DNA of 26,097 bases from a virus: the IMG/VR virus record IMGVR_UViG_3300025647_000235, positions 1 to 26,097 of that record. The stretch is one strand, 5' to 3'. Shown one piece after another: positions 861-9,830 of the stretch. The translations under genes and the position numbers were made by a program. The notes below the pieces were generated by a model that was given only the letters and a program-made list of their open reading frames with translations, ran no database searches and was not told where the DNA came from. The stretch's first letter is position 1. Each line of letters begins with the position of its first letter.

Positions 861-1027
861 AGCGTAAGGTAGAAGACCAACTCCCACCCAAGCAATACGG
901 AATGTTTGGGTGGTGTCTAACCAACAACCACAAGAACTGCCAGACCAATGCAGTCACCGTAGATTGCACTTGTGAGTGTCACAGGAAGGAGAGTGATGAG
1001 AGCCAAGCTACCAAGGCTAACGCCTGA
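857..1027 (+). CDS. Small cysteine-rich hypothetical protein (56 aa)
   Basis: A GTG at 857 overlaps the TGA of the preceding tiny gene as GTGA. The frame ends at TGA 1025-1027, overlapping the start of the helicase gene by 32 bases. The product has cysteines at residues 20, 28, 37, 39 and 41 and the end motif CTCECH, a plausible metal-binding cluster. Small Cys/His proteins ending in CxCxCH are often seen in actinophage early regions (general knowledge; the family cannot be named). No Shine-Dalgarno sequence is visible, so reinitiation is assumed. If the start is wrong, the cysteine cluster still lies in an open frame. Confidence 0.5.
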   Translation: MKRKVEDQLPPKQYGMFGWCLTNNHKNCQTNAVTVDCTCECHRKESDESQATKANA

Positions 1028-2366
1028 CGCCAACCAAGAGAAGGCGATTCAGAAGATGGTTGCCGAGCCAACTAAGGCCGCATTGAATGCTAGCCTTATG
1101 GGCACAGGGAAGACCCTGATGGCAACCGAGGTAGCACTAAGGCTGAACGCGAAGAGCGTACTCATCATTGCTCCTTTGAACACTTACTGGGGCTGGCACG
1201 ACACCATCCAGAGGCAGACCGATTACACCGCAAACGGGTTGCACAAGATAGACAGTAGCACCAAGGGGCGCGAAGCCTTCAGGTCACTATCCGAGTCTGC
1301 TTCTGGGTGGTACTTCGTTGGACGCGAGTACTTCAGGACTAAGGAGTGGCACAAGATTGTGCCTGACATCGTGCTGGTAGATGAGTGCCACTTCATGCAG
1401 AACAGAGCAAGCAAGGGATTCAAGGTAGCCAAGACTCTGAAGGCAGGGTTCAAGCTGTCTATGTCTGGCACGCCATTCGGCAACAGGTTCGAAGGATTCT
1501 GGGCAGTGACTAGATTCCTATGGCCGGAGGACAAGATTGTTCAGCGCTCATTCTGGAAGTGGGTAGAGAAGTGGGCACTTACTGCTTACAACCCATTCAG
1601 CAACGTGGAGATTACAGGCGAGAAGATTCCAGGAGCATTCGCCAACAGCTTGCCATGCTACGTTAGGCTTGAGCCTGACTACAGCATTGACGTGGTGCAT
1701 GAGGTTAGATACGTTGACCTAGTGCCAGCTCAGCGCAAGATTTACCTGAAGTTCCAGAAGGACTTAGTAGTCTGGCTACAGGACAACCCGTTGATTGCAG
1801 AGGTGCCCATCGCTGCTCGCATTCGCTTGCGACAGATGACCTTGGCTGTGCCTAGCCTTAATGAAGATGACCAAGTGTACTTCGAAGAGGGTGCAGTATC
1901 AACCAAGTACCAAGCGCTTGTCGAGATTATCGATGACAACCCTAATGACAAGATGCTCATCTTGACAGACAGCCAGAAGTATGCTAGGCTTGTGACCAAC
2001 AGGCTTAACGCCAAGTACGGTGCCGATTGCGCATTCGAATGGAGCGGGCAGGCCAACCAGTCACAGCGTGAGGAAGCTAAGCAGGAGTTCATCAGCGGTG
2101 ACCGTAGGTTTATTGTTGCTGTGATTCCAGCGATTGCCGAAGGCGTGGACGGATTGCAGGACGCCTGCCGTACTGTAGTATGGCTCAGCCACAGCGACAG
2201 CAACATCCTGAACCAGCAGGTGCTTGACCGCATCCGCAGGCGTGGACAGAAGGAAGTAGTGCAGGTGTTTGACATCGTGGCACGTGACACTTACGATGAG
2301 GGACAACTAGACACCTTGCTACAGCGTGAGCTGGACTCAAGGGCAAGCTTGAAGGGAGACAAGTAA
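996..2366 (+). CDS. SNF2-like superfamily 2 DNA helicase/ATPase
   Basis: This 456-residue protein has the full set of SF2 motifs: a P-loop MGTGKT (35-40), a Walker B box VLVDECH (126-132, DECH rather than DEAH), motif III SGTP (157-160), motif V AIAEGVDGL (379-387) and motif VI with an arginine-rich QVLDRIRRRGQ (408-418), as in SNF2/Rad54-type translocases. It would use ATP to move along duplex DNA in phage replication or recombination. The frame is open further upstream (GTG at 972 and 993), but ATG 996 is chosen because AGGAAGGAGAG lies directly before it. The length is short for the family, with little beyond the two RecA lobes. The stop overlaps the next start (TAATG). Confidence 0.93.
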   Translation: MRAKLPRLTPDANQEKAIQKMVAEPTKAALNASLMGTGKTLMATEVALRLNAKSVLIIAPLNTYWGWHDTIQRQTDYTANGLHKIDSSTKGREAFRSLSESASGWYFVGREYFRTKEWHKIVPDIVLVDECHFMQNRASKGFKVAKTLKAGFKLSMSGTPFGNRFEGFWAVTRFLWPEDKIVQRSFWKWVEKWALTAYNPFSNVEITGEKIPGAFANSLPCYVRLEPDYSIDVVHEVRYVDLVPAQRKIYLKFQKDLVVWLQDNPLIAEVPIAARIRLRQMTLAVPSLNEDDQVYFEEGAVSTKYQALVEIIDDNPNDKMLILTDSQKYARLVTNRLNAKYGADCAFEWSGQANQSQREEAKQEFISGDRRFIVAVIPAIAEGVDGLQDACRTVVWLSHSDSNILNQQVLDRIRRRGQKEVVQVFDIVARDTYDEGQLDTLLQRELDSRASLKGDK

Positions 2367-2569
2367 TGGAAAGCTTCTGGGATTTACTGCCAGGATTTAT
2401 GTTCATCGCGCCACTGATTGGTGTGTTGTTATTTGCGATTTGGATAAAGGCAGTGTTCATAATGACAATGGTAAGGATTATGCTAAACGGAGGTGTCGAG
2501 CGGGCAACTGACAACGGCATGGTATCGGTACGACTAAACAGCTACGACTACGATGAGGATGGTTACTAA
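2366..2569 (+). CDS. Small membrane protein (67 aa)
   Basis: The ATG shares its A with the helicase stop codon (TAATG), with AGGGAG just upstream. Residues 9-36 form a strongly hydrophobic stretch (LPGFMFIAPLIGVLLFAIWI then KAVFIMTMV), enough for one membrane span or a tight pair, followed by a short polar tail ending in an acidic DYDEDGY. The likely site is the host inner membrane. The function is unknown; membrane proteins in early operons sometimes alter the host envelope or exclude other phages, but nothing here shows that. The stop again overlaps the next gene (TAATG). Confidence 0.8.
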   Translation: MESFWDLLPGFMFIAPLIGVLLFAIWIKAVFIMTMVRIMLNGGVERATDNGMVSVRLNSYDYDEDGY

Positions 2570-3117
2570 TGGCAGAGTATAAATGGGAACCAGCTGACAA
2601 GTCTAACCCTTGGGGACGCAAGAGGGCTAAGGGTACGCACTGCTCACAGGGACACGAGTTCACTGAGGAGAACACCTTCATCAGACCTTACGACAAGACT
2701 AGAGTTTGTCGCGAGTGTAGACGTAGGTATGCCCGCAAGAAGTACCAAGAGAACAAGCACTCCGGCAAGACCAAGACAAAGCACGAGCCAATTCGCATGG
2801 TGCCGATTCCAGACAGCGTGTTCCTAACTGACCTTGCTGGTGAGTACTACGCTGAACTGCAGGAAAAGCTTGCAGTGACCAAGGTGCCATGCAGAAACCA
2901 GATGGAGTTGTTCGACAACCCTGAGAAGGTGTCACAGAAACAAGCCAAAGCGGCGTGTCATGGTTGCCCTCTGATACAAGAGTGTGGTAACTTTGCAATA
3001 GCAAGCAAGCAAGAGTACGGCATATGGGGTGGCATCAACTACACAAGGAGGAGGTACAAGAATGGTAGTGAATGGTTCGACTTTAAAGAATCTAGCAGTA
3101 TCTCTGCTGAGGACTGA
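2569..3117 (+). CDS. Zinc-finger/WhiB-family fusion protein
   Basis: The N-terminal part holds a zinc-binding module, CSQGHEF (C25, H29) and CRECRRRYARKK (C47, C50), of the kind found at the start of actinophage HNH-type proteins. Residues 105-163 are a WhiB (Wbl) domain: C108, then C130-HG-C133-PLIQE-C139, giving the four cysteines that hold a 4Fe-4S cluster, followed by the family turn GIWGG (151-155) and a basic segment YTRRRYK for DNA contact. Wbl proteins regulate transcription in Actinobacteria by binding the primary sigma factor and responding to redox or nitric oxide. Actinophage Wbl proteins such as TM4 WhiBTM4 down-regulate a host homologue. At 182 residues it is about twice the usual Wbl length because of the fused finger. 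The next gene begins inside its last 56 bases. Confidence 0.88.
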   Translation: MAEYKWEPADKSNPWGRKRAKGTHCSQGHEFTEENTFIRPYDKTRVCRECRRRYARKKYQENKHSGKTKTKHEPIRMVPIPDSVFLTDLAGEYYAELQEKLAVTKVPCRNQMELFDNPEKVSQKQAKAACHGCPLIQECGNFAIASKQEYGIWGGINYTRRRYKNGSEWFDFKESSSISAED

Positions 3118-3769
3118 GACTGAACGCGACAAGCAGTACAAGGTAGGAGCATCTCAGATATCCAACCCTTGCACCAAGCACCTAGCTATGGACCTAGCTG
3201 GCATCAAGCAACCGCCAAGCAAGTACTGGTTGGGTGCAGTGATTGGGACTGCTGTGCACGCTGCACTAGAGGATGGCATCTCAAAGGTAGCAACGCCACA
3301 GCTAGAGGGTGCACTTGTCGAGCAGAAGATTACGCTCGGTGAGATTCCTGGGTACGGTGTAATCTCAAGCAAGCCTGACCTTGTGCTACCAGCAAGCAAC
3401 CACTTGGTTGACTGGAAGACTTCGACTAGGGCAAAGACCAAGAAGATTCAGGCATGGGTAGATGGCACCAAGCAAGACGCATCTACCACTTACACAATGC
3501 AAAAGTACATCGGGCAGACACAACTGTATGCTTGGGGTGTTACGCAGAGTGGGTTACAAATTGATAACATTTCGTTAGTATTCATCAATAGGGATGGAAC
3601 TAGCGAGGCGGATGTGCTAGAATACACATTCGAATACGATGAGTCTATTGCAGTTGCACTATGGGACAGACTTGTGGTATTGTGGGAGGAGCTGCAAGGC
3701 GGAGCTCATCCTGAGTCGTACAGCGGGCACCCAGAGTGCTTTAACTGTTCGGTAAATGGGTTAGTATAA
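3062..3769 (+). CDS. RecB/Cas4-like PD-(D/E)XK exonuclease
   Basis: This 235-residue protein carries the nuclease signature: H66 in IGTAVHAALE, D106 in SKPDLVL, then D117-W-K119 in LVDWKTST, and Q152/Y156 in GQTQLYAW. This is the RecB-type arrangement used by Cas4-like phage exonucleases that resect DNA ends for recombination. ATG 3062 is chosen because AGGAGGAGG lies 7 bases upstream; the frame is open back to 3029 but without a ribosome site. C37 at the N-terminus and C226/C229 at the C-terminus resemble the Cas4/AddB iron-sulfur cysteines, but the fourth cysteine is missing because the protein ends at residue 235. It is followed by a Sak4-type ATPase and an SSB, which supports a recombination role. 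Confidence 0.85.
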   Translation: MVVNGSTLKNLAVSLLRTETERDKQYKVGASQISNPCTKHLAMDLAGIKQPPSKYWLGAVIGTAVHAALEDGISKVATPQLEGALVEQKITLGEIPGYGVISSKPDLVLPASNHLVDWKTSTRAKTKKIQAWVDGTKQDASTTYTMQKYIGQTQLYAWGVTQSGLQIDNISLVFINRDGTSEADVLEYTFEYDESIAVALWDRLVVLWEELQGGAHPESYSGHPECFNCSVNGLV

Positions 3770-3788
3770 TAAACAAGGAGGAAATATA

Positions 3789-4520
3789 ATGGGCGCAACA
3801 ACTGAATTCCCAGCGTTGTCTTTTGAGAAGTTCATTCACAAGGCAGAGGCGCTGAACACACCAAAGACTATTCTTATCTACGGCGATGCTGGCCGAGGCA
3901 AGACTTGGCTGGCTGCATCTGCAGCAGAGATTGCTGAGCTGTCACCTGTGCTACTAATTGACATCGAGGGTGGCGCATCTGCCATTGCCCGCGACTTCAA
4001 GGACGTAGACGTTATCAACGTGGACGGACACGAGAAGCTAGACAAGGTTATGAATGACCTACTAACTGTCAAGCACAAGTACAAGACTGTCATCATCGAC
4101 ACCCTTGGTGTCGCTATGGATAGGGCAGAGAAGTTCTTTGGTGAGAAGCCAGAGAATAAGGGCAACAAGTTTGGCAAGTGGGGTGACCTGAAGATTTGGG
4201 TCAACGACTTGGTGCGTGCAATGCACGCTGCACCATTCGTTTCCATCATCTTGACTCACGCAGAAGACCAGAAAGATGAGTCTACTGGTGCTGTCAAGAC
4301 TGTGCCTAACATCCCAGGTGGTGCTAAGAAGGACCTACCAGGCATCCCTGACATCATTGGATACATGACTGCACAGAAGCGGGAAGACGGTACGCCTGAG
4401 CGTGTGCTAGTAGTTGCTTCTTCTGACAGGCTAGTAACCAAGAACCGCTTCAACTTGCCACCGGTGATTGCCGACCCAAGCTTGAAGAAGATATTCGCAC
4501 TAATCAAAGGAGGTAAGTAA
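3789..4520 (+). CDS. Sak4-like RecA-fold ATPase (AAA_24 type)
   Basis: Residues 31-39 are a Walker A loop, YGDAGRGKT. LLIDIEGGA (55-63) and the Walker B strand VIIDT (101-105) follow in the order seen in Sak4-type phage RecA-core proteins. The length (243 aa) fits that family, which anneals single strands or assists single-strand annealing in phage recombination and is usually encoded beside an SSB. That is the case here: the next gene, overlapping by one base, is a DUF669-type protein. A good Shine-Dalgarno AAGGAGG precedes the ATG. The late loop with IPGGAKKDLPGIPDIIGY (residues 177-194) fits DNA contact in this group, which is inference. Confidence 0.88.
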   Translation: MGATTEFPALSFEKFIHKAEALNTPKTILIYGDAGRGKTWLAASAAEIAELSPVLLIDIEGGASAIARDFKDVDVINVDGHEKLDKVMNDLLTVKHKYKTVIIDTLGVAMDRAEKFFGEKPENKGNKFGKWGDLKIWVNDLVRAMHAAPFVSIILTHAEDQKDESTGAVKTVPNIPGGAKKDLPGIPDIIGYMTAQKREDGTPERVLVVASSDRLVTKNRFNLPPVIADPSLKKIFALIKGGK

Positions 4521-4987
4521 TGAGTTACACACTGAAGTTCAGTGATGACGTACTGGAGTCCAAGGGCACCGGTACACTAGAGCCAGTACCAGCAGGCTCC
4601 TACAACGCAACCGTCTTCGACATCAAGGAAGAGACAGTTCGCTCCGGCCCTAACGAGGGCAAGCCAAGGTTCAACGTACAGTTCCGCATCTCTGAGGGGC
4701 AGTATGAGAACCGCAGAGTGTTCAGCTATGTTCCACTCTATGTAGCTAACGATGCTTGGAAGGCAGCCGCCTTCTTCAAGTCACTTGGTTATGACGTCAA
4801 GGCGGGCAACTTTAAGGTGCCTGAGACTGCCGACATTCTAGGCAAGTCAATTGGCGTACGAGTCAAGGTAGGCGCAGGCATTAACGGCGAGGCCCGTAAT
4901 GAGGTGGGTGGCTTTGATAAGCCAACCGCAGGTACCGATGCGCTAGTCGCATCATTGGGCGCGGTACCAACAGAGGAAACTTGGTAA
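4520..4987 (+). CDS. DUF669-like phage single-stranded DNA-binding protein
   Basis: This 155-residue protein starts with the pattern of DUF669 proteins: a short lead, then PAGSYNATVFDIKEETV (24-40), GKPRFNVQFRI, a segment around RVFSYVPLY, and a C-terminal acidic EETW. DUF669 proteins are small OB-fold-like phage SSBs found next to Sak4 or Erf-type recombinases. It would coat single-stranded DNA during replication and recombination. The start overlaps the stop of the ATPase gene (TAATG) with AAAGGAGG upstream. The acidic tail ending in an aromatic residue is what SSBs use to recruit partner proteins. It is the last gene before the structured RNA gap. Confidence 0.82.
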   Translation: MSYTLKFSDDVLESKGTGTLEPVPAGSYNATVFDIKEETVRSGPNEGKPRFNVQFRISEGQYENRRVFSYVPLYVANDAWKAAAFFKSLGYDVKAGNFKVPETADILGKSIGVRVKVGAGINGEARNEVGGFDKPTAGTDALVASLGAVPTEETW

Positions 4988-4992
4988 TCCTT

Positions 4993-5110
4993 TAATCCAA
5001 GGCAGGGGTGCGTCTGCTCAACGCACACTAGCTCCGATTGGATTATCCGTCCTCCCTCCTCCTGTTTCATCTCTACGGATAGTTAAGTTCGATTCTTAAC
5101 CGGAGCACCA
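4993..5110 (+). ncRNA. Structured RNA with T-arm, acceptor-like stem and CCA end (tRNA/tmRNA-like)
   Basis: This gap folds almost entirely into perfect helices. P1: TAATCCAA (4993-5000) with TTGGATTA (5038-5045). P2: GTGCGT (5008-5013) with ACGCAC (5021-5026), 7-nt loop. P3: ATCCGT (5045-5050) with ACGGAT (5075-5080), 24-nt pyrimidine-rich loop. P4: GTTAAG (5082-5087) with CTTAAC (5095-5100) around TTCGATT, a textbook T-loop. P5: GCTCCG (5031-5036) with CGGAGC (5101-5106), followed by ACCA. P4 and P5 are the T-arm and acceptor of a tRNA, but no D-arm or 5-bp/7-nt anticodon arm can be built between 5038 and 5081. P5 uses bases in the P1 loop, so P1 and P5 together would be a pseudoknot. It could be a tRNA-like domain, a degenerate tRNA, or a cis-regulatory leader of the primase gene. 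Confidence 0.5.
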
Positions 5111-5139
5111 TCACTATCAGGAGGCTATCGAAAGGAGGA
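5057..5139 (+). promoter_or_regulatory. Anti-Shine-Dalgarno tract facing two ribosome sites of the primase-helicase gene
   Basis: TCCTCCTG (5057-5064), in the loop of the hairpin upstream, can pair over 7 bp with CAGGAGG (5118-5124) or with AGGAGGA (5133-5139). Both lie directly before the ATG at 5142. The second purine-rich site ends only 3 bases before the start codon, which is short. The tract is fully complementary to the sites, so it could hide them in one fold and release them in another. This is read from sequence only; a regulatory role is inference. Confidence 0.4.
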
Positions 5140-5141
5140 AT

Positions 5142-7340
5142 ATGAAGACAGCAGACTTTTTAACAGCAGTGCTTGGCAACGGCACCGGCATCGCTACACT
5201 TGTTATCCGTAACGCTACTTCAGGAGAGCTTACGGAGCAGAAGTTCTATGAGTACCCAGAGCAAAAGCATGAGATGGTGGCCTTTGCTACTGAGCACGCT
5301 ATGCAGGATGTTTACTTCTCACCAATACTATTCAACGCTCAGCGTCGCATCAAGGAGAACGCCAAGACTGTTAGCGTAATCTATGCAGACGCAGACTCAT
5401 GCGCTCCAGAGAACTTCCTGCTACAGCCATCCATATCTGTGCAAACATCCAAGGACCGCTGGCACACCTACTGGATTCTTGACCAAGAGGTCGAGCCACA
5501 TGAAGCTGCACTGCTGTCAAAGAAGGTGGCCTACGCACACCAGCACCAGGGTTGTGACAAGTCAGGCTGGAACACTACTAAGCTGTTGCGCCTGCCAAAC
5601 ACTCGCAACATGAAGCACGAGAACCCTTGGAGCATTGAGGCAACCACCACTGGCGAAGTCTACAGCTTTGAGCAGGTTGAGTCTGTATATGGTGACGTTA
5701 CGGTAGAGCCTATTCGTGAGGCTGCTGACACACCAATGCCCGCTGGATTCCCTTCTATTCTTGAGGTGCTTGAGAAGCTGTCACACAACCCGCAGATTGT
5801 TGGGCTGTACATGGAGCAGCCAGCACACAATGCAGACCTATCACGCCTGCTGTGGAAGCTTGAGATGGAACTGTTCCGCGAGGGATTGACTGCTGAAGAA
5901 GTATTCACAGTTGCTCGTCACGCCAAGTGCAACAAGTACCACAGCCCTGACAGGAGCAAGAGGCTTGATGCTGATGGTGACCTATGGCGTGAGGTCCAGC
6001 GTGCACAAGCCAGCTTCAAGCTAGAGCAAGATGAGTTTGTACCTGAGCCAATAACTAATGACGCACCGTTGGCTAGGTTCCAGAAGGTTGAGGTCTCGAT
6101 GCTTACGCCAGAAGAGCGTGAGCTTGTCGAGATGACGCCAAGCTTTATCGACCGGTATGTTGCATGGGCTAGGTCTAAGACCGATGGTGCGCTTAGCTAC
6201 CAGATTGCCAGCGCATTCACAGTGCTGTCTGCAGTGTTCTCTGACTGGGGTTACGCTGTGCCAAAGTATGGCAAGATGGGCCTGAACCTGTGGTTCATGG
6301 TGCTTGGTGAGACCACGCTAACTCGTAAGTCAACCAGCCGTAACCTTATGTTGCGTGTTGTGCGTGCCTACGAGAAGTTTGGTGGCTACCAGATTGACAT
6401 TGGTTCGGATGCTACGCCTGAAGGTGTTACCAAGATTCTTGCAGACAGAGACAAGAAGACTAGCCTGTTGCACCGCGATGAGGTTCAGGGTATGTTCAAG
6501 GACTTTATGAACAAGACCTACATGGCCTCAGCTGCCGAGCGATACACCGAGCTTTACGATGGGCAGGTGCCTGTTGTAATCCGTTCAGCCAAGGATGCAG
6601 GCCAGACCCAGAGGGCTGAGACCAACTTCATCCTGTACTTGATGGGTATCACTAGCAAGGTGGCCGACGTCCTGACCACTGAGTACTTCCGCTCAGGATT
6701 CTTGGCACGATTCATTTACGTGACTGCTGACGCACCGGACAGGACTCGTGAGCTTGAGGACATCCAGCAGGCAGATGAGTATGAGGTTAACGTCAAGGAC
6801 ACCGGACTAGATGCCATGGTTCGCGGACTGTTTGAGTCTGTGACTTACTGGCAGAAGAAGGGCCAGCCCTCACCTCGCCCGCTAAGACTAACCCAAGCTG
6901 CACTTGACAGGTTCAACCAGTACAAGTGGGAGATGGGTAACTTCGCTGAGTCACACAGAGAGAAGGAGTCAATTGAGCCATCGCGCCAGCGACTTGCCTT
7001 GTCTGTGTGGAAGTCGGCAACCCTGCTTGCTATGCACGACAAGTCGGATGAGGTAAAGCTCAGCCACTTGCTCACTGCAATCTACTACTCAGAAGAGTGG
7101 TTCGAGAACCTAGTGAGGATGGCATCTGCTATCTCTGCATCTGAGTGGCAGCGTGATGTTGACTCACTTGAGGCTTACATCGTTGACCGCGGTGGTCGTG
7201 TTCGATATGAAGAATGCTATCGCAAGTTCAGCAACAAGAAGAAGCGAGAGTTCGACGACATGGTTGAGGCCCTCAGGTCGCAAGCAAGAGTCGGAGCAAT
7301 CGTTGATGGCAGAAAAACTTATTTGGAGGTAATAGCTTGA
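5142..7340 (+). CDS. Bifunctional primase-helicase (RepB-like PrimPol domain plus DUF3987-like ATPase)
   Basis: The N-terminal part (about 1-190) looks like an archaeo-eukaryotic-type primase of the phage RepB/PrimPol group: a metal-binding YADAD (81-85), SKDRWHTYW (103-111) with the catalytic His, and RLPNTRNMKH (150-159), the nucleotide-binding R-x-P-x-T-x-N-x-K signature. The C-terminal part (about 330-700) matches helicase-like ATPases of the DUF3987 kind: a loop GETTLTRKST (389-398) in the P-loop place, and HRDEVQGMF (444-452) as Walker B. It would start and unwind DNA at the phage fork. The P-loop is degenerate, lacking the glycine before the lysine. The gene follows the structured RNA and its stop overlaps the next start. 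Confidence 0.85.
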   Translation: MKTADFLTAVLGNGTGIATLVIRNATSGELTEQKFYEYPEQKHEMVAFATEHAMQDVYFSPILFNAQRRIKENAKTVSVIYADADSCAPENFLLQPSISVQTSKDRWHTYWILDQEVEPHEAALLSKKVAYAHQHQGCDKSGWNTTKLLRLPNTRNMKHENPWSIEATTTGEVYSFEQVESVYGDVTVEPIREAADTPMPAGFPSILEVLEKLSHNPQIVGLYMEQPAHNADLSRLLWKLEMELFREGLTAEEVFTVARHAKCNKYHSPDRSKRLDADGDLWREVQRAQASFKLEQDEFVPEPITNDAPLARFQKVEVSMLTPEERELVEMTPSFIDRYVAWARSKTDGALSYQIASAFTVLSAVFSDWGYAVPKYGKMGLNLWFMVLGETTLTRKSTSRNLMLRVVRAYEKFGGYQIDIGSDATPEGVTKILADRDKKTSLLHRDEVQGMFKDFMNKTYMASAAERYTELYDGQVPVVIRSAKDAGQTQRAETNFILYLMGITSKVADVLTTEYFRSGFLARFIYVTADAPDRTRELEDIQQADEYEVNVKDTGLDAMVRGLFESVTYWQKKGQPSPRPLRLTQAALDRFNQYKWEMGNFAESHREKESIEPSRQRLALSVWKSATLLAMHDKSDEVKLSHLLTAIYYSEEWFENLVRMASAISASEWQRDVDSLEAYIVDRGGRVRYEECYRKFSNKKKREFDDMVEALRSQARVGAIVDGRKTYLEVIA

Positions 7341-7522
7341 CAGACAACTACAGCAGAAAAGCAAAGTTCGACAACGTAAAGTATGACGAAGATGCACTTA
7401 GATTCCATGCAGAGAAGTATGAGCTAGGTTTCAGGTACACACTATCCCTAGCTTGCTACCAATATTTACAGATTGCCAAGATGAAAGAGGAGGTACTACG
7501 TGAAAACAATGCTAAGCTTTGA
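7337..7522 (+). CDS. Small hypothetical protein (61 aa)
   Basis: The start is a TTG at 7337 that overlaps the TGA of the primase-helicase gene as TTGA, with GGAGGT about 10 bases upstream. The product is charged and helical, with ALRFHAEKYELGFRYTLSLA and a helical basic/acidic tail. No metal site or membrane span is seen. It is not recognised. The next gene begins inside its last 23 bases after a strong AGGAGG that lies within this frame. Its position between the primase and the resolvase suggests a small accessory factor, but nothing in the sequence proves it. Confidence 0.65.
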   Translation: MTDNYSRKAKFDNVKYDEDALRFHAEKYELGFRYTLSLACYQYLQIAKMKEEVLRENNAKL

Positions 7523-7940
7523 CCCAGGGGGCACGACAGGTGTTGCACTTTTTGATTACAGCGACAACGCCTATGAGCTCCAATGGAAGAAGCAGATACC
7601 GAACGGCCTTCAAGGCTTCCTTGACTGGCACTGGGATGAGGGTGAAGACATAGCAGTTGACACCATTGTCTGTGAGTCATTTGATTTGCGGGCTGGCATC
7701 TACCCAGACCTCAGCCCTGTGTATATCATCGGCGCACTAGAGGCAGTGTGGCCAAATGCACTTACTCAAATTGTTTACCAGAAGCCAAGCATGAAGCACC
7801 TGTGCGAGGACCCTGTACTAAAGAAGATGAACCTGCACTCACCGGGCAAGCCCCACGCAAACGATGCGGTCCGTCACGGTATAATATATTTACGGAATAA
7901 AAAGAATAAACAAGTACTAACGGAAGGATGGGGTGATTAA
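7500..7940 (+). CDS. RuvC-like Holliday junction resolvase
   Basis: This 146-residue protein has the RNase H-fold acidic triad of RuvC-type resolvases: D8 in SFDPGGTTGVAL, E59 in IVCESFD, and D122 in HANDAVRHGIIYL with H119 before it. Such enzymes cut branched DNA before packaging. The start is a GTG at 7500 with AGGAGG at 7487-7492. The length matches phage RuvC-like proteins, which are a little shorter than host RuvC. Its place between the primase and a DnaQ-like exonuclease fits late replication or branch removal. An alternative is a transposase-like RNase H protein, but the context argues against it. Confidence 0.85.
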   Translation: MKTMLSFDPGGTTGVALFDYSDNAYELQWKKQIPNGLQGFLDWHWDEGEDIAVDTIVCESFDLRAGIYPDLSPVYIIGALEAVWPNALTQIVYQKPSMKHLCEDPVLKKMNLHSPGKPHANDAVRHGIIYLRNKKNKQVLTEGWGD

Positions 7941-7942
7941 TT

Positions 7943-8779
7943 ATGCCATATTACATAGCACAAAACCATCCCGACTGTTCAACTAAATGGGCTGTTGTAA
8001 AAGAGTCTTATGAGCTAGTCGCGTGTCACCGCACTAAGACCGCTGCAGTTGCGCAGATGGTTGCAATCTCCACCGAAGAGGGCATCGAACCAGGTGGCAC
8101 ACACCCTCGCGACGAAAGGAAAGAGTCAGTGAAGAAGAGGGTTAAAGAAGTAACTCAAAGCTTATACTCACAGCTCGAAGGCGATGAGAAGGCACTCGTT
8201 GACTCTATGCTTGGAGTCGTTAATGAGTTTGGAAAGTTTGGTTCAGACACCAGCAGTGTCTTTGTCAACTACCTGCCACCAGCCGAGAACACAGACAGTG
8301 CAATTGGCGTTAAGTGTGGCAACTGTGTATTCCATGCGATGACCGAAGATGGCATCGAGTGTAGTGCCGTTGCTGTTGACATCGAGGAAGACGGTGCCTG
8401 CAGATTGGCAATGATTCCGCCAGGATTGGTGACTGTTAACGAGTCTGCTTTGCGCGAAGCAGAGAAGACCTACAAGGTGCCTGAGGGCGTCTCTAGTGCC
8501 GCCAAGAGGGCACAGAAGTGGATTAGCGAGGGCAAGGCTGGGTCAGGCTTTACCGACACCGGACGCAGGCGAGCAGCACAACTTGCATCTGGTGGCTCTG
8601 TAAGCAGGGATGTCGTTGGAAGGATGAAGTCTTACTTTGCAAGACATGCTGGGGACAGCAAGGCTGAAGGATTTAACTCGGGCGAGAAGGGCTATCCAAG
8701 TCCGGGTCGTGTAGCTTGGGATGCTTGGGGCGGCGACGCTGGCAAGACCTGGGTTAGCGGCATTAAGTTGGACCGATGA
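7943..8779 (+). CDS. Multi-domain phage protein: N-terminal 'NHPDC' domain, four-Cys site, C-terminal KSYFARH-type domain
   Basis: Three parts can be seen in 278 residues. Residues 1-50 (YYIAQNHPDCSTKWAVVK, then CHRTKTAA) resemble a small domain found at the front of many actinophage head proteins. Residues 125-153 hold C125-GN-C128, C140 and C153, a metal or iron-sulfur site. Residues 180-270 hold GFTDTGRRRAAQLASGG, then VVGRMKSYFARHAGD, then WDAWGGDAGKTW, a conserved phage module often attached to capsid proteases, portals or nucleases. No protease or nuclease active site is recognised here. All three modules are usually met in virion-associated proteins, so finding them in the replication block is odd. 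The start follows AAGGATGGGGTGATTAATT, a weak ribosome site. The biochemical role is unknown. Confidence 0.7.
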   Translation: MPYYIAQNHPDCSTKWAVVKESYELVACHRTKTAAVAQMVAISTEEGIEPGGTHPRDERKESVKKRVKEVTQSLYSQLEGDEKALVDSMLGVVNEFGKFGSDTSSVFVNYLPPAENTDSAIGVKCGNCVFHAMTEDGIECSAVAVDIEEDGACRLAMIPPGLVTVNESALREAEKTYKVPEGVSSAAKRAQKWISEGKAGSGFTDTGRRRAAQLASGGSVSRDVVGRMKSYFARHAGDSKAEGFNSGEKGYPSPGRVAWDAWGGDAGKTWVSGIKLDR

Positions 8780-9510
8780 AGATATTATTCTTAGACATCG
8801 AGACAACACCTAACTTGGCTTACGTCTGGGGGCTGTTCAAGCAGAACGTCTCCATCAATCAGATTGAAAAGTCAACCGAGATGCTATGTTTCGGCGCTCG
8901 CTGGTACGGAGAGAAGAAGGTAACCTTCAAGTCTGTGCACCACGATGGCAAGCAGGCAATGCTTGAGGAAGTTCACCGCCTGCTTGATGAGGCTGATGTA
9001 CTTGTCGGCTGGAACTCTAAAGGCTTTGACTCTAAGCACCTGAAGCGTGAGCTATTGCAGGCTGGTATGAAGCCACCGTCCCCTTACAAGGAGATGGACC
9101 TAATGCTGGCTGTCAAGTCTCAGTTCAGGTTCCCAAGCAACAAGCTAGACTATGTAGCCCAGACACTTGGTGTTGGCGCTAAGGTTCAGCACAGTGGATT
9201 CGAGCTATGGACACGCTGCATGGCTGGCGAGAAGAAGGCTTGGACCGAGATGAAGAAGTACCAGATTCAGGATGTCAATCTTTTGATAGACCTTTATGAG
9301 ATACTGAAGCCTTGGATTCCTAACCACCCTAATACCGCACTACACGATGGGCTAGAAGAAGGCTGTGTAGTCTGTGCGTCTAACAACCTACAGCGCAGAG
9401 GCGTGGCAAGAACTGTTTCTGGTACCTACCAAAGGTTCCAGTGCCAGAGTTGCGGCAAGTGGCAACGTGGTCCCATCTCAATTAACAAGACATTAACAAG
9501 GTCAATATGA
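8776..9510 (+). CDS. DnaQ-like 3'-5' exonuclease with C-terminal zinc ribbon
   Basis: This 244-residue protein carries the DEDDy exonuclease motifs: DIET (7-10), GWNSKGFDSKHL with N80 and D85, and Y162-QIQ-D166. These hold the two metal ions that remove nucleotides from the 3' end. A zinc ribbon follows (C197, C200, C223, C226), suited to nucleic-acid binding. It may proofread, trim recombination ends or degrade host DNA; the replicative polymerase itself is not in this window. The ATG overlaps the previous stop (ATGA). Some RNase_H_2-family phage proteins share this layout, so DNA versus RNA preference is open. Confidence 0.87.
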   Translation: MKILFLDIETTPNLAYVWGLFKQNVSINQIEKSTEMLCFGARWYGEKKVTFKSVHHDGKQAMLEEVHRLLDEADVLVGWNSKGFDSKHLKRELLQAGMKPPSPYKEMDLMLAVKSQFRFPSNKLDYVAQTLGVGAKVQHSGFELWTRCMAGEKKAWTEMKKYQIQDVNLLIDLYEILKPWIPNHPNTALHDGLEEGCVVCASNNLQRRGVARTVSGTYQRFQCQSCGKWQRGPISINKTLTRSI

Positions 9511-9830
9511 TTAAGCGGTGGATTGCTAAGCTATTCGGCCTGCATGTGCCACCGCAAATAATCATTGAGCCAGAACCAGAGTATGACTACATGGGCTACA
9601 CCATGACCGATGAAGAAACGGGCATGACTCTATCTGTGCTCATGATTTGTGGTTGTGGTGGCCCAGTGGTTGTTGCAGGTGCCGATGAGAAGAACTTCTG
9701 GTGCGAGCATTGTGATAGAGAATGCACAGAGGATAAGCCCTGTGGCTTATGCGAGGCTCACTTTATATTCGATGCGGAAGCTGCTAAAGCAGAGGCCGCC
9801 GGATTCTATTACGACGACGAAGAAGAATAA
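9507..9830 (+). CDS. Hypothetical protein with two CxC/CxxC metal-binding clusters (107 aa)
   Basis: The ATG overlaps the previous stop codon (ATGA). The middle of the protein has CGCGG (C49, C51), then CEHCDREC (C70, C73, C77) and CGLC (C83, C86), a set that would fit one or two structural zinc sites. The N-terminus (MIKRWIAKLFGL) is basic and amphipathic; the C-terminus is acidic (DDEEE). No family is recognised. It is the last gene of the plus-strand block, followed within 6 bases by a terminator hairpin. Confidence 0.75.
   Translation: MIKRWIAKLFGLHVPPQIIIEPEPEYDYMGYTMTDEETGMTLSVLMICGCGGPVVVAGADEKNFWCEHCDRECTEDKPCGLCEAHFIFDAEAAKAEAAGFYYDDEEE

Follow-up and report, generated by a model that had tools for sequence, protein, structure and literature searches.

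A Predicted tRNA-Like RNA with a 5′ Pseudoknot and an Anti-Shine-Dalgarno Loop Upstream of the Primase Gene of Uncultured Phages

Introduction

RNA viruses provide familiar examples of tRNA mimicry, as do a few bacterial leaders. In the thrS operator of E. coli, an mRNA leader with tRNA-like parts controls the access of the ribosome to the downstream gene, and it is the anticodon arm that is mimicked in order to bind ThrRS. The tRNA-like structures of plant viruses, in which a pseudoknot domain precedes the tRNA-like domain, end the genome and are aminoacylated. In MALAT1, a U-A.U triple helix that protects the 3′ end lies directly 5′ of mascRNA, a tRNA-like element that is cut by RNase P. Finally, the tRNA-like domain of tmRNA (RF00023) combines an acceptor stem and a T-arm with a D-loop that has no D-stem, while a long helix takes the place of the anticodon arm.

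The element analysed here lies at about 5002-5106 on the + strand of a 26,097-base IMG/VR virus record (the window, that is, the whole stretch of DNA that was analysed). It shares with the tmRNA domain all the features just listed, but it is devoid of a tag reading frame and of the internal pseudoknot ring, does not conserve the CCA, carries its pseudoknot 5′ of the acceptor and has an anti-Shine-Dalgarno (anti-SD) sequence as its loop. With tRNA (RF00005) it has in common a TTCGA T-loop, the GG of the D-loop and an acceptor/T spacing of 12 in 28 of 41 versions, whereas it has no D-stem and no 7-nt anticodon loop, contains a long variable hairpin and scores below the Rfam threshold. Like the thrS operator, it would be an mRNA leader in which tRNA-like parts control ribosome access, but what it mimics are the acceptor, the T-arm and the elbow, and the loop itself would pair with the leader. 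As in MALAT1, a compact structure is found directly 5′ of a tRNA-like element for which processing can be proposed, although the structure is an H-type pseudoknot instead of a U-A.U triplex and the carrier is a bacterial virus. The order of pseudoknot domain and tRNA-like domain is that of the plant virus structures, from which the element differs in being internal to the mRNA of a DNA phage and in having no conserved CCA.

The RNA family can be regarded as undescribed. Each of its parts resembles something known; the combination fits no tested family. A literature search among openly licensed papers returned no description of such an element. In the window, ARAGORN reported 0 genes, and Rfam gave no match at the gathering score and only chance-level matches, none of them to tRNA, at E<=10; tmRNA was likewise found neither by Rfam RF00023 nor by ARAGORN, and no tag peptide was seen. 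A sequence-only reading of the same DNA had described a pseudoknotted tRNA-like RNA resembling the tRNA-like domain of tmRNA, without a D-stem and with a long hairpin replacing the anticodon arm. That description has held up, while membership of the tRNA or tmRNA family is not borne out by the ARAGORN and Rfam searches.

Genomic Context and Relatives

The element belongs to a replication and recombination module that occupies the + strand from about 970 to 9830 and that, according to Pfam and PHROG matches, encodes a SNF2-type helicase, a WhiB-like protein, an exonuclease, a Sak4-like ATPase, a DUF669/SSB-like protein, a primase and a DNA polymerase exonuclease-like protein. The upstream gene (4520-4987, + strand) codes for the 155-aa DUF669/SSB-like protein (Pfam PF05037, E=1.3e-5; PHROG SSB-type matches), and the gene at the equivalent position of Arthrobacter phage Molivia is annotated as 'single strand DNA binding protein'. 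The downstream gene (5142-7340, + strand), presumed to be the regulated one, codes for the 732-aa primase (PHROG 10514 DNA primase, E=2.3e-173; Pfam DUF3987), and the 154-nt gap between the two contains the RNA element. The nearest named relatives of the primase are found in Arthrobacter, Curtobacterium, Clavibacter and Streptomyces phages (about 28-37% identity), together with one Stenotrophomonas virus (38% identity). Because of these relatives and of the WhiB-like protein, the hosts of the phages carrying the element are probably actinobacteria. A DNA similarity search against named phages gave no real match, and no prophage copies were found when they were sought in sequenced genomes by means of the primase.

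Relatives were collected by scanning IMG/VR with the DUF669 protein (39 loci), a DUF669 alignment (80) and a primase alignment (80), the resulting sets being overlapping. The primase start could be placed in 209 loci with usable upstream sequence, which yielded 88 distinct upstream regions, and 82 DUF669-bounded regions were handled by the parser. In 73 of these 82 gaps the parser recognized an H-type pseudoknot with a tRNA-like domain behind it, and some of the parses without a pseudoknot (e.g., L216, L251 and L256) visibly hold one that falls outside the limits of the parser. From the 73 pseudoknot-bearing gaps, 41 non-redundant versions were picked at <88% identity; relatedness is handled by this thinning only, so that related lineages are not fully independent. 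The element is widespread in a large group of uncultured phages, where it occupies the gap that separates the SSB-like DUF669 gene from that of the primase.

The Pseudoknot and the tRNA-Like Domain

The element begins 5-22 nt after the stop codon with an H-type pseudoknot, which 3-4 nt of linker separate from a tRNA-like domain. In the window, the DUF669 stop codon lies 14 nt 5′ of the pseudoknot (5002-5026, + strand), in which stem S1 pairs GCAG (5002-5005) with CTGC (5014-5017), stem S2 pairs GTGCG (5008-5012) with CGCAC (5022-5026), and TCAA (5018-5021) forms loop 3. Besides being returned by the parser, the pseudoknot shows double changes in both S1 and S2 in the two alignments described below. 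The linker ACTA (5027-5030) leads to the acceptor stem, and its length is 3-4 nt in 34/41 versions. Different sequence classes of pseudoknot are interchangeable at this position, namely GGGGTGCG...CGCAC in the window, CCTGAG...CTTAAAAC...CTCA in many relatives, and rarer others. When the upstream 50 nt were shuffled with preservation of dinucleotides, the same parser found any pseudoknot in 224 of 8200 shuffles (about 1 in 37), while a pseudoknot that equals the real one was obtained in 22 of 8200. In most relatives (e.g., L018, L030 and L175) a conserved motif, (A)AUGGGC(A), is also seen just 5′ of S1; it has no evident covarying partner and is missing from the window's own clade.

The tRNA-like domain (5031-5106, + strand) is indicated by covariation, by the spacing between T-loop and acceptor and by a covariance-model match. 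It consists of a 6-bp acceptor stem (5031-5036/5101-5106), a D-loop-like ATTGGAT with GG at 5040-5041, a central hairpin (approximately 5044-5050/5075-5081), and a 6-bp T-stem (5082-5087/5095-5100) closed by the T-loop TTCGATT (5088-5094), which fits the TTCRANY pattern of tRNA and builds with the acceptor a 12-nt stack of 6+6 bp. In the relatives, the acceptor has as a rule 5-7 bp, with inner pairs mismatched in some versions, the D-stem is absent, the central hairpin varies in length, and a T-arm of 4-7 bp carries a TTC(G/A)A loop. The D-loop GG is retained at offset 9 from the first acceptor nucleotide in 34/41 versions. The distance from T-loop to acceptor end, 12 nt in most versions, is 10-11 nt in the remaining ones. 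The acceptor is usually trailed by A and C, with R-C in nearly all versions, while a full ACCA is found in only 4/41, the window included, so that amino acid charging is unlikely as a common function. An essential role of an encoded CCA is not supported. In three relatives (L002:6475-6715, L003 and L009) two tRNA-like units stand in tandem with a long hairpin between them, and only the second has the anti-SD loop.

The five helices of the sequence-only reading are all present in the window, and four of them are kept with compensatory changes in the relatives. The fifth, an enclosing 5′ helix (TAATCCAA/TTGGATTA, 4993-5000/5038-5045), reaches 8 bp only in the window and elsewhere amounts to 3-6 bp at shifting positions. 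Of the H-type pseudoknot, that reading had listed the helix at 5008-5013/5021-5026, which overlaps S2, but had missed the true partner, the S1 pairing. The absence of a D-stem was correctly noted, the D-loop GG being nevertheless retained. Also missed, together with the H-type pseudoknot as such, were the anti-SD loop and the way in which this loop covaries with the primase leader.

Since a parser that seeks helices finds helices anyway, three further controls were run, of which the dinucleotide shuffles given above are the first. For the second, RNAalifold was applied to parse-blind MAFFT alignments. On a mixed alignment of the tRNA-like domain (A4) only the T-arm was recovered because hairpin lengths vary, for which reason each pseudoknot class was given an alignment of its own. 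In the 22-sequence class, S2, the acceptor, the central hairpin and the T-arm were recovered with changes on both sides, while in the 17-sequence class S2 and the T-arm were recovered and the acceptor and hairpin were not. Third, pairs were counted in both alignments, including those of S1, for which MAFFT and RNAalifold can have no preference, and with the central hairpin counted in the 22-sequence alignment only. Paired cells amounted to 94.5% and 96.6% in the 22- and 17-sequence alignments, respectively (shuffled, 78.0 and 77.1), double-change cells to 94 and 66 (shuffled, 24.7 and 19.8), and the covariation score to 0.512 and 0.578 (shuffled, 0.196 and 0.193). In both alignments 0 of 500 shuffles were as good, the statistics collapse when partners are slid by 1-3 columns, and pseudoknot, acceptor and T-arm covary in both classes. 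In addition, a covariance model (R1) built only from the other pseudoknot class, without the window, matches the window with 46.1 bits (E=1.3e-8) and likewise matches L302, L087, L300, L198 and L123, all outside its alignment. On these computational grounds, the fold is that of a tRNA-like domain with an H-type pseudoknot.

The Anti-Shine-Dalgarno Loop and the Primase Leader

At the position of the anticodon arm, the loop is a pyrimidine tract that usually contains CTCCT(TT) and resembles the 3′ end of 16S rRNA. In the window it is the 24-nt loop CCTCCCTCCTCCTGTTTCATCTCT (5051-5074, + strand). It cannot pair with the 16S anti-SD and would instead compete with it for Shine-Dalgarno (SD) sequences. 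The primase leader (5107-5141, + strand) comprises the ACCA, a purine element CAGGAGG (5118-5124) and the Shine-Dalgarno sequence AAGGAGG (5132-5138), and CCTCCTG of the loop (5058-5064) can pair with the purine element. Loop and leader can form 7-11 bp in most versions, with little or no complementarity in L336, L246, L123 and L014. The primase start lies 15-42 nt downstream of the element in 16/41 versions and 73-712 nt downstream in 25/41, bona fide tRNA-Asn, -Thr or -Trp genes often intervening in these far versions.

Part of this complementarity is expected, since any anti-SD pairs with any SD, and for the window alone the match between loop and leader is no better than that of shuffled loops (p=0.14). 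The comparison of own with other leaders is more informative. For adjacent loci, none of 5000 permutations was as good, and with one member per SD family 40 of 20000 (helix score) and 2 of 20000 (duplex energy) were; for the far loci alone the count was 0/20000. Over all 41 versions, the association of each loop with its own leader reached z=6.3 (Watson-Crick helix) and 5.1 (duplex energy), again with 0/20000 permutations as good, and it holds even with genuine tRNA genes in between. Joint changes of loop and leader are exemplified by CCCTTTCTC/GAGAAAGGG (L300), CCTCCTCCCTG/CAGGGAGGAGG (L194), CTTCTTCTCC/GGAGAAGAAG (L172 and L059), TTTATCTCTC/GAGAGATAAA (L017) and TCTCTCT/AGAGAGA (L247), and the most telling cases are those that jointly depart from the standard anti-SD (L300, L194, L247, L172/L059, L017/L018 and L319). 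Within contigs, where a simple script was used to call gene starts, the loop scores on average 4.5-5.1 units higher with the primase leader than with the remaining genes, about twice the difference of 2.3-2.4 obtained for the 16S anti-SD. The duplex predicted for the window has -20.1 kcal/mol for loop:leader versus -15.8 kcal/mol for 16S anti-SD:leader, and the former is the stronger in 5/6 checked. The computed statistics show that, within each phage, the anti-SD loop and the purine-rich primase leader evolve together. A conserved structure upstream of a gene and a covarying anti-SD:leader pairing are what a leader sequestering the SD presents, with the peculiarity that 25/41 versions lie 73-712 nt off.

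Proposed Mechanism and Alternatives

Taken as a guide to function, these patterns make it probable that the element regulates the primase cistron in cis, as a tRNA-shaped RNA by which the ribosome-binding site of the primase is hidden. A switch for the primase gene is also the best supported of the three functions first suggested for this DNA, and no supporting evidence was found for another of them, the priming of replication. In the proposed sequence of events, the SSB-primase transcript would fold into the pseudoknot and, 3-4 nt on, the tRNA-like domain, and pairing of loop and leader would compete with 16S rRNA, holding primase translation low relative to that of SSB. A cut by RNase P at the 5′ end of the domain, predicted at 5030/5031, and tRNA-type 3′ processing would then release the domain and free the ribosome-binding site, while the pseudoknot, which would now close the SSB message at its 3′ end, would shield that message from exonucleases. 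Release by RNase P is inferred from the acceptor/T-arm stack of the domain, which has the ruler length that the enzyme measures, and an elbow. Indeed, RNase P gauges the distance from elbow to cleavage site on this stack and accepts non-tRNA RNAs that have it (PMC4919913), and its substrates in vitro even include a small pseudoknot RNA that ends in RCCA (PMC12710915).

Besides the part of the complementarity that any anti-SD would show, two observations count against the cis-regulatory reading. The CCA end is not conserved, and in the far versions the processing of intervening tRNAs should part the loop from its target, so that pairing would have to precede tRNA processing or to persist in trans. 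If the reading is borne out, tRNA processing would be linked to the control of phage DNA replication via the primase ribosome-binding site. It is a more tentative proposal that RNAs of this kind form a new class of gene-control element, in which a repressor shaped like a tRNA reads the ribosome-binding site of its own gene with its 'anticodon', is switched by tRNA maturation and is capped by a pseudoknot; if true, synthesis of the replicative primase would be coupled to RNase P processing and the cap would protect the remaining message.

Genuine tRNA genes follow the element within the same gap in many relatives, the next one being only a few nt away in some versions. The domain standing in line with real tRNA genes, and the anti-SD loop being retained where the primase lies hundreds of bases off, would both suit an excised small RNA acting in trans, a tRNA-shaped anti-SD RNA by which the translation of messages from host or phage would be lowered. 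We consider this rather unlikely, as the margin by which the loop favours its own primase leader over the contig's remaining genes is wider than that of a generic anti-SD, and coevolution with that leader is unneeded by a general repressor. Less probable still is that the element only punctuates the operon transcript, with an RNase P site and a pseudoknot cap splitting it and the pyrimidine loop being secondary. Three findings agree with such punctuation: only 3-4 nt of linker part the pseudoknot from the tRNA-type element on its 3′ side; in Molivia, the corresponding two genes enclose a similar pseudoknot-like sequence that is directly followed by a tRNA-annotated element; and lone pseudoknots occur a few nt past stop codons in about 100 other phage loci. 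Punctuation would explain neither why the anti-SD loop is conserved nor why it covaries with the leader. The conservation of tRNA elbow elements without decoding capacity could also be read as a decoy or mimic for a host factor that handles tRNA, such as an anticodon nuclease or a modification enzyme; this seems very improbable, given that the loop has no conserved anticodon but a long tract of pyrimidines that fits the leader of the phage itself, and that no known target was identified. A degenerate tRNA or chance folding, to which the silence of ARAGORN and Rfam might point, is contradicted by the compensatory changes and by the fact that diverse phages have kept the element at this one place, between DUF669 and primase.

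Other RNAs at the SSB-Primase Junction and Stand-Alone Pseudoknots

The junction of the SSB and primase genes is a recurrent home for tRNA-type RNAs, as seen from three named phages. In Molivia (L178:2060-2253), a sequence like the second pseudoknot class is followed at once by the tRNA-annotated element, to which, as to its neighbour, ARAGORN could assign no anticodon. Curtobacterium phage Yappy has a tRNA-Leu in this gap. Stenotrophomonas virus Jojan60 has tRNAs and, just upstream of the primase, an 83-nt tmRNA-like element (L182:2362-2444) that scores 61.8 bits with Rfam tmRNA while missing the whole tag and pseudoknot region. Short tmRNA-like pieces (GGGACTGGAGTGGTTTCGATT ... TTCGACTCTCAGCAGTTCC) occur among tRNA genes in L220 (about 1538-1622), L327 and the L035/L037 gaps, with no Rfam tmRNA match at the gathering score in L220, L327 and L037. 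In Clavibacter phage CN1A (L180:2367-2495), a differently built tRNA-like end with a T-arm, a short acceptor and ACCA appears, by eye, to lie directly before the primase. The element itself may have derived from a tRNA with a retooled anticodon arm. Because cultured Arthrobacter phages carry tRNA-type elements at the same place, the proposal is in part open to laboratory tests.

Alongside the composite, a second undescribed RNA element emerges, likewise without an Rfam match here: a stand-alone H-type pseudoknot (AGGGGTGCGNCT..ACGCAC) that occurs in L044, L053, L072, L137 and about 100 other IMG/VR loci, and whose copy in the window is the one at 5002-5026. In the pseudoknot-only stretch of L053, Rfam gave no match at the gathering score. 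Readthrough of the stop codon or frameshifting driven by the pseudoknot was considered and rejected, as reading frames mostly end rather than run past it; at least 60 open codons past the pseudoknot were found in frames 0, -1 and +1 in 4, 15 and 11 of 95 pseudoknot-only copies, respectively. Of the 106 copies that have no tRNA-like domain, 104 stand no more than 80 nt past an open frame (median 7 nt), typically 4-10 nt past the stop codon, and they are usually a short distance upstream of the next start codon. S1 varies together with its partner, and some phages have several copies each.
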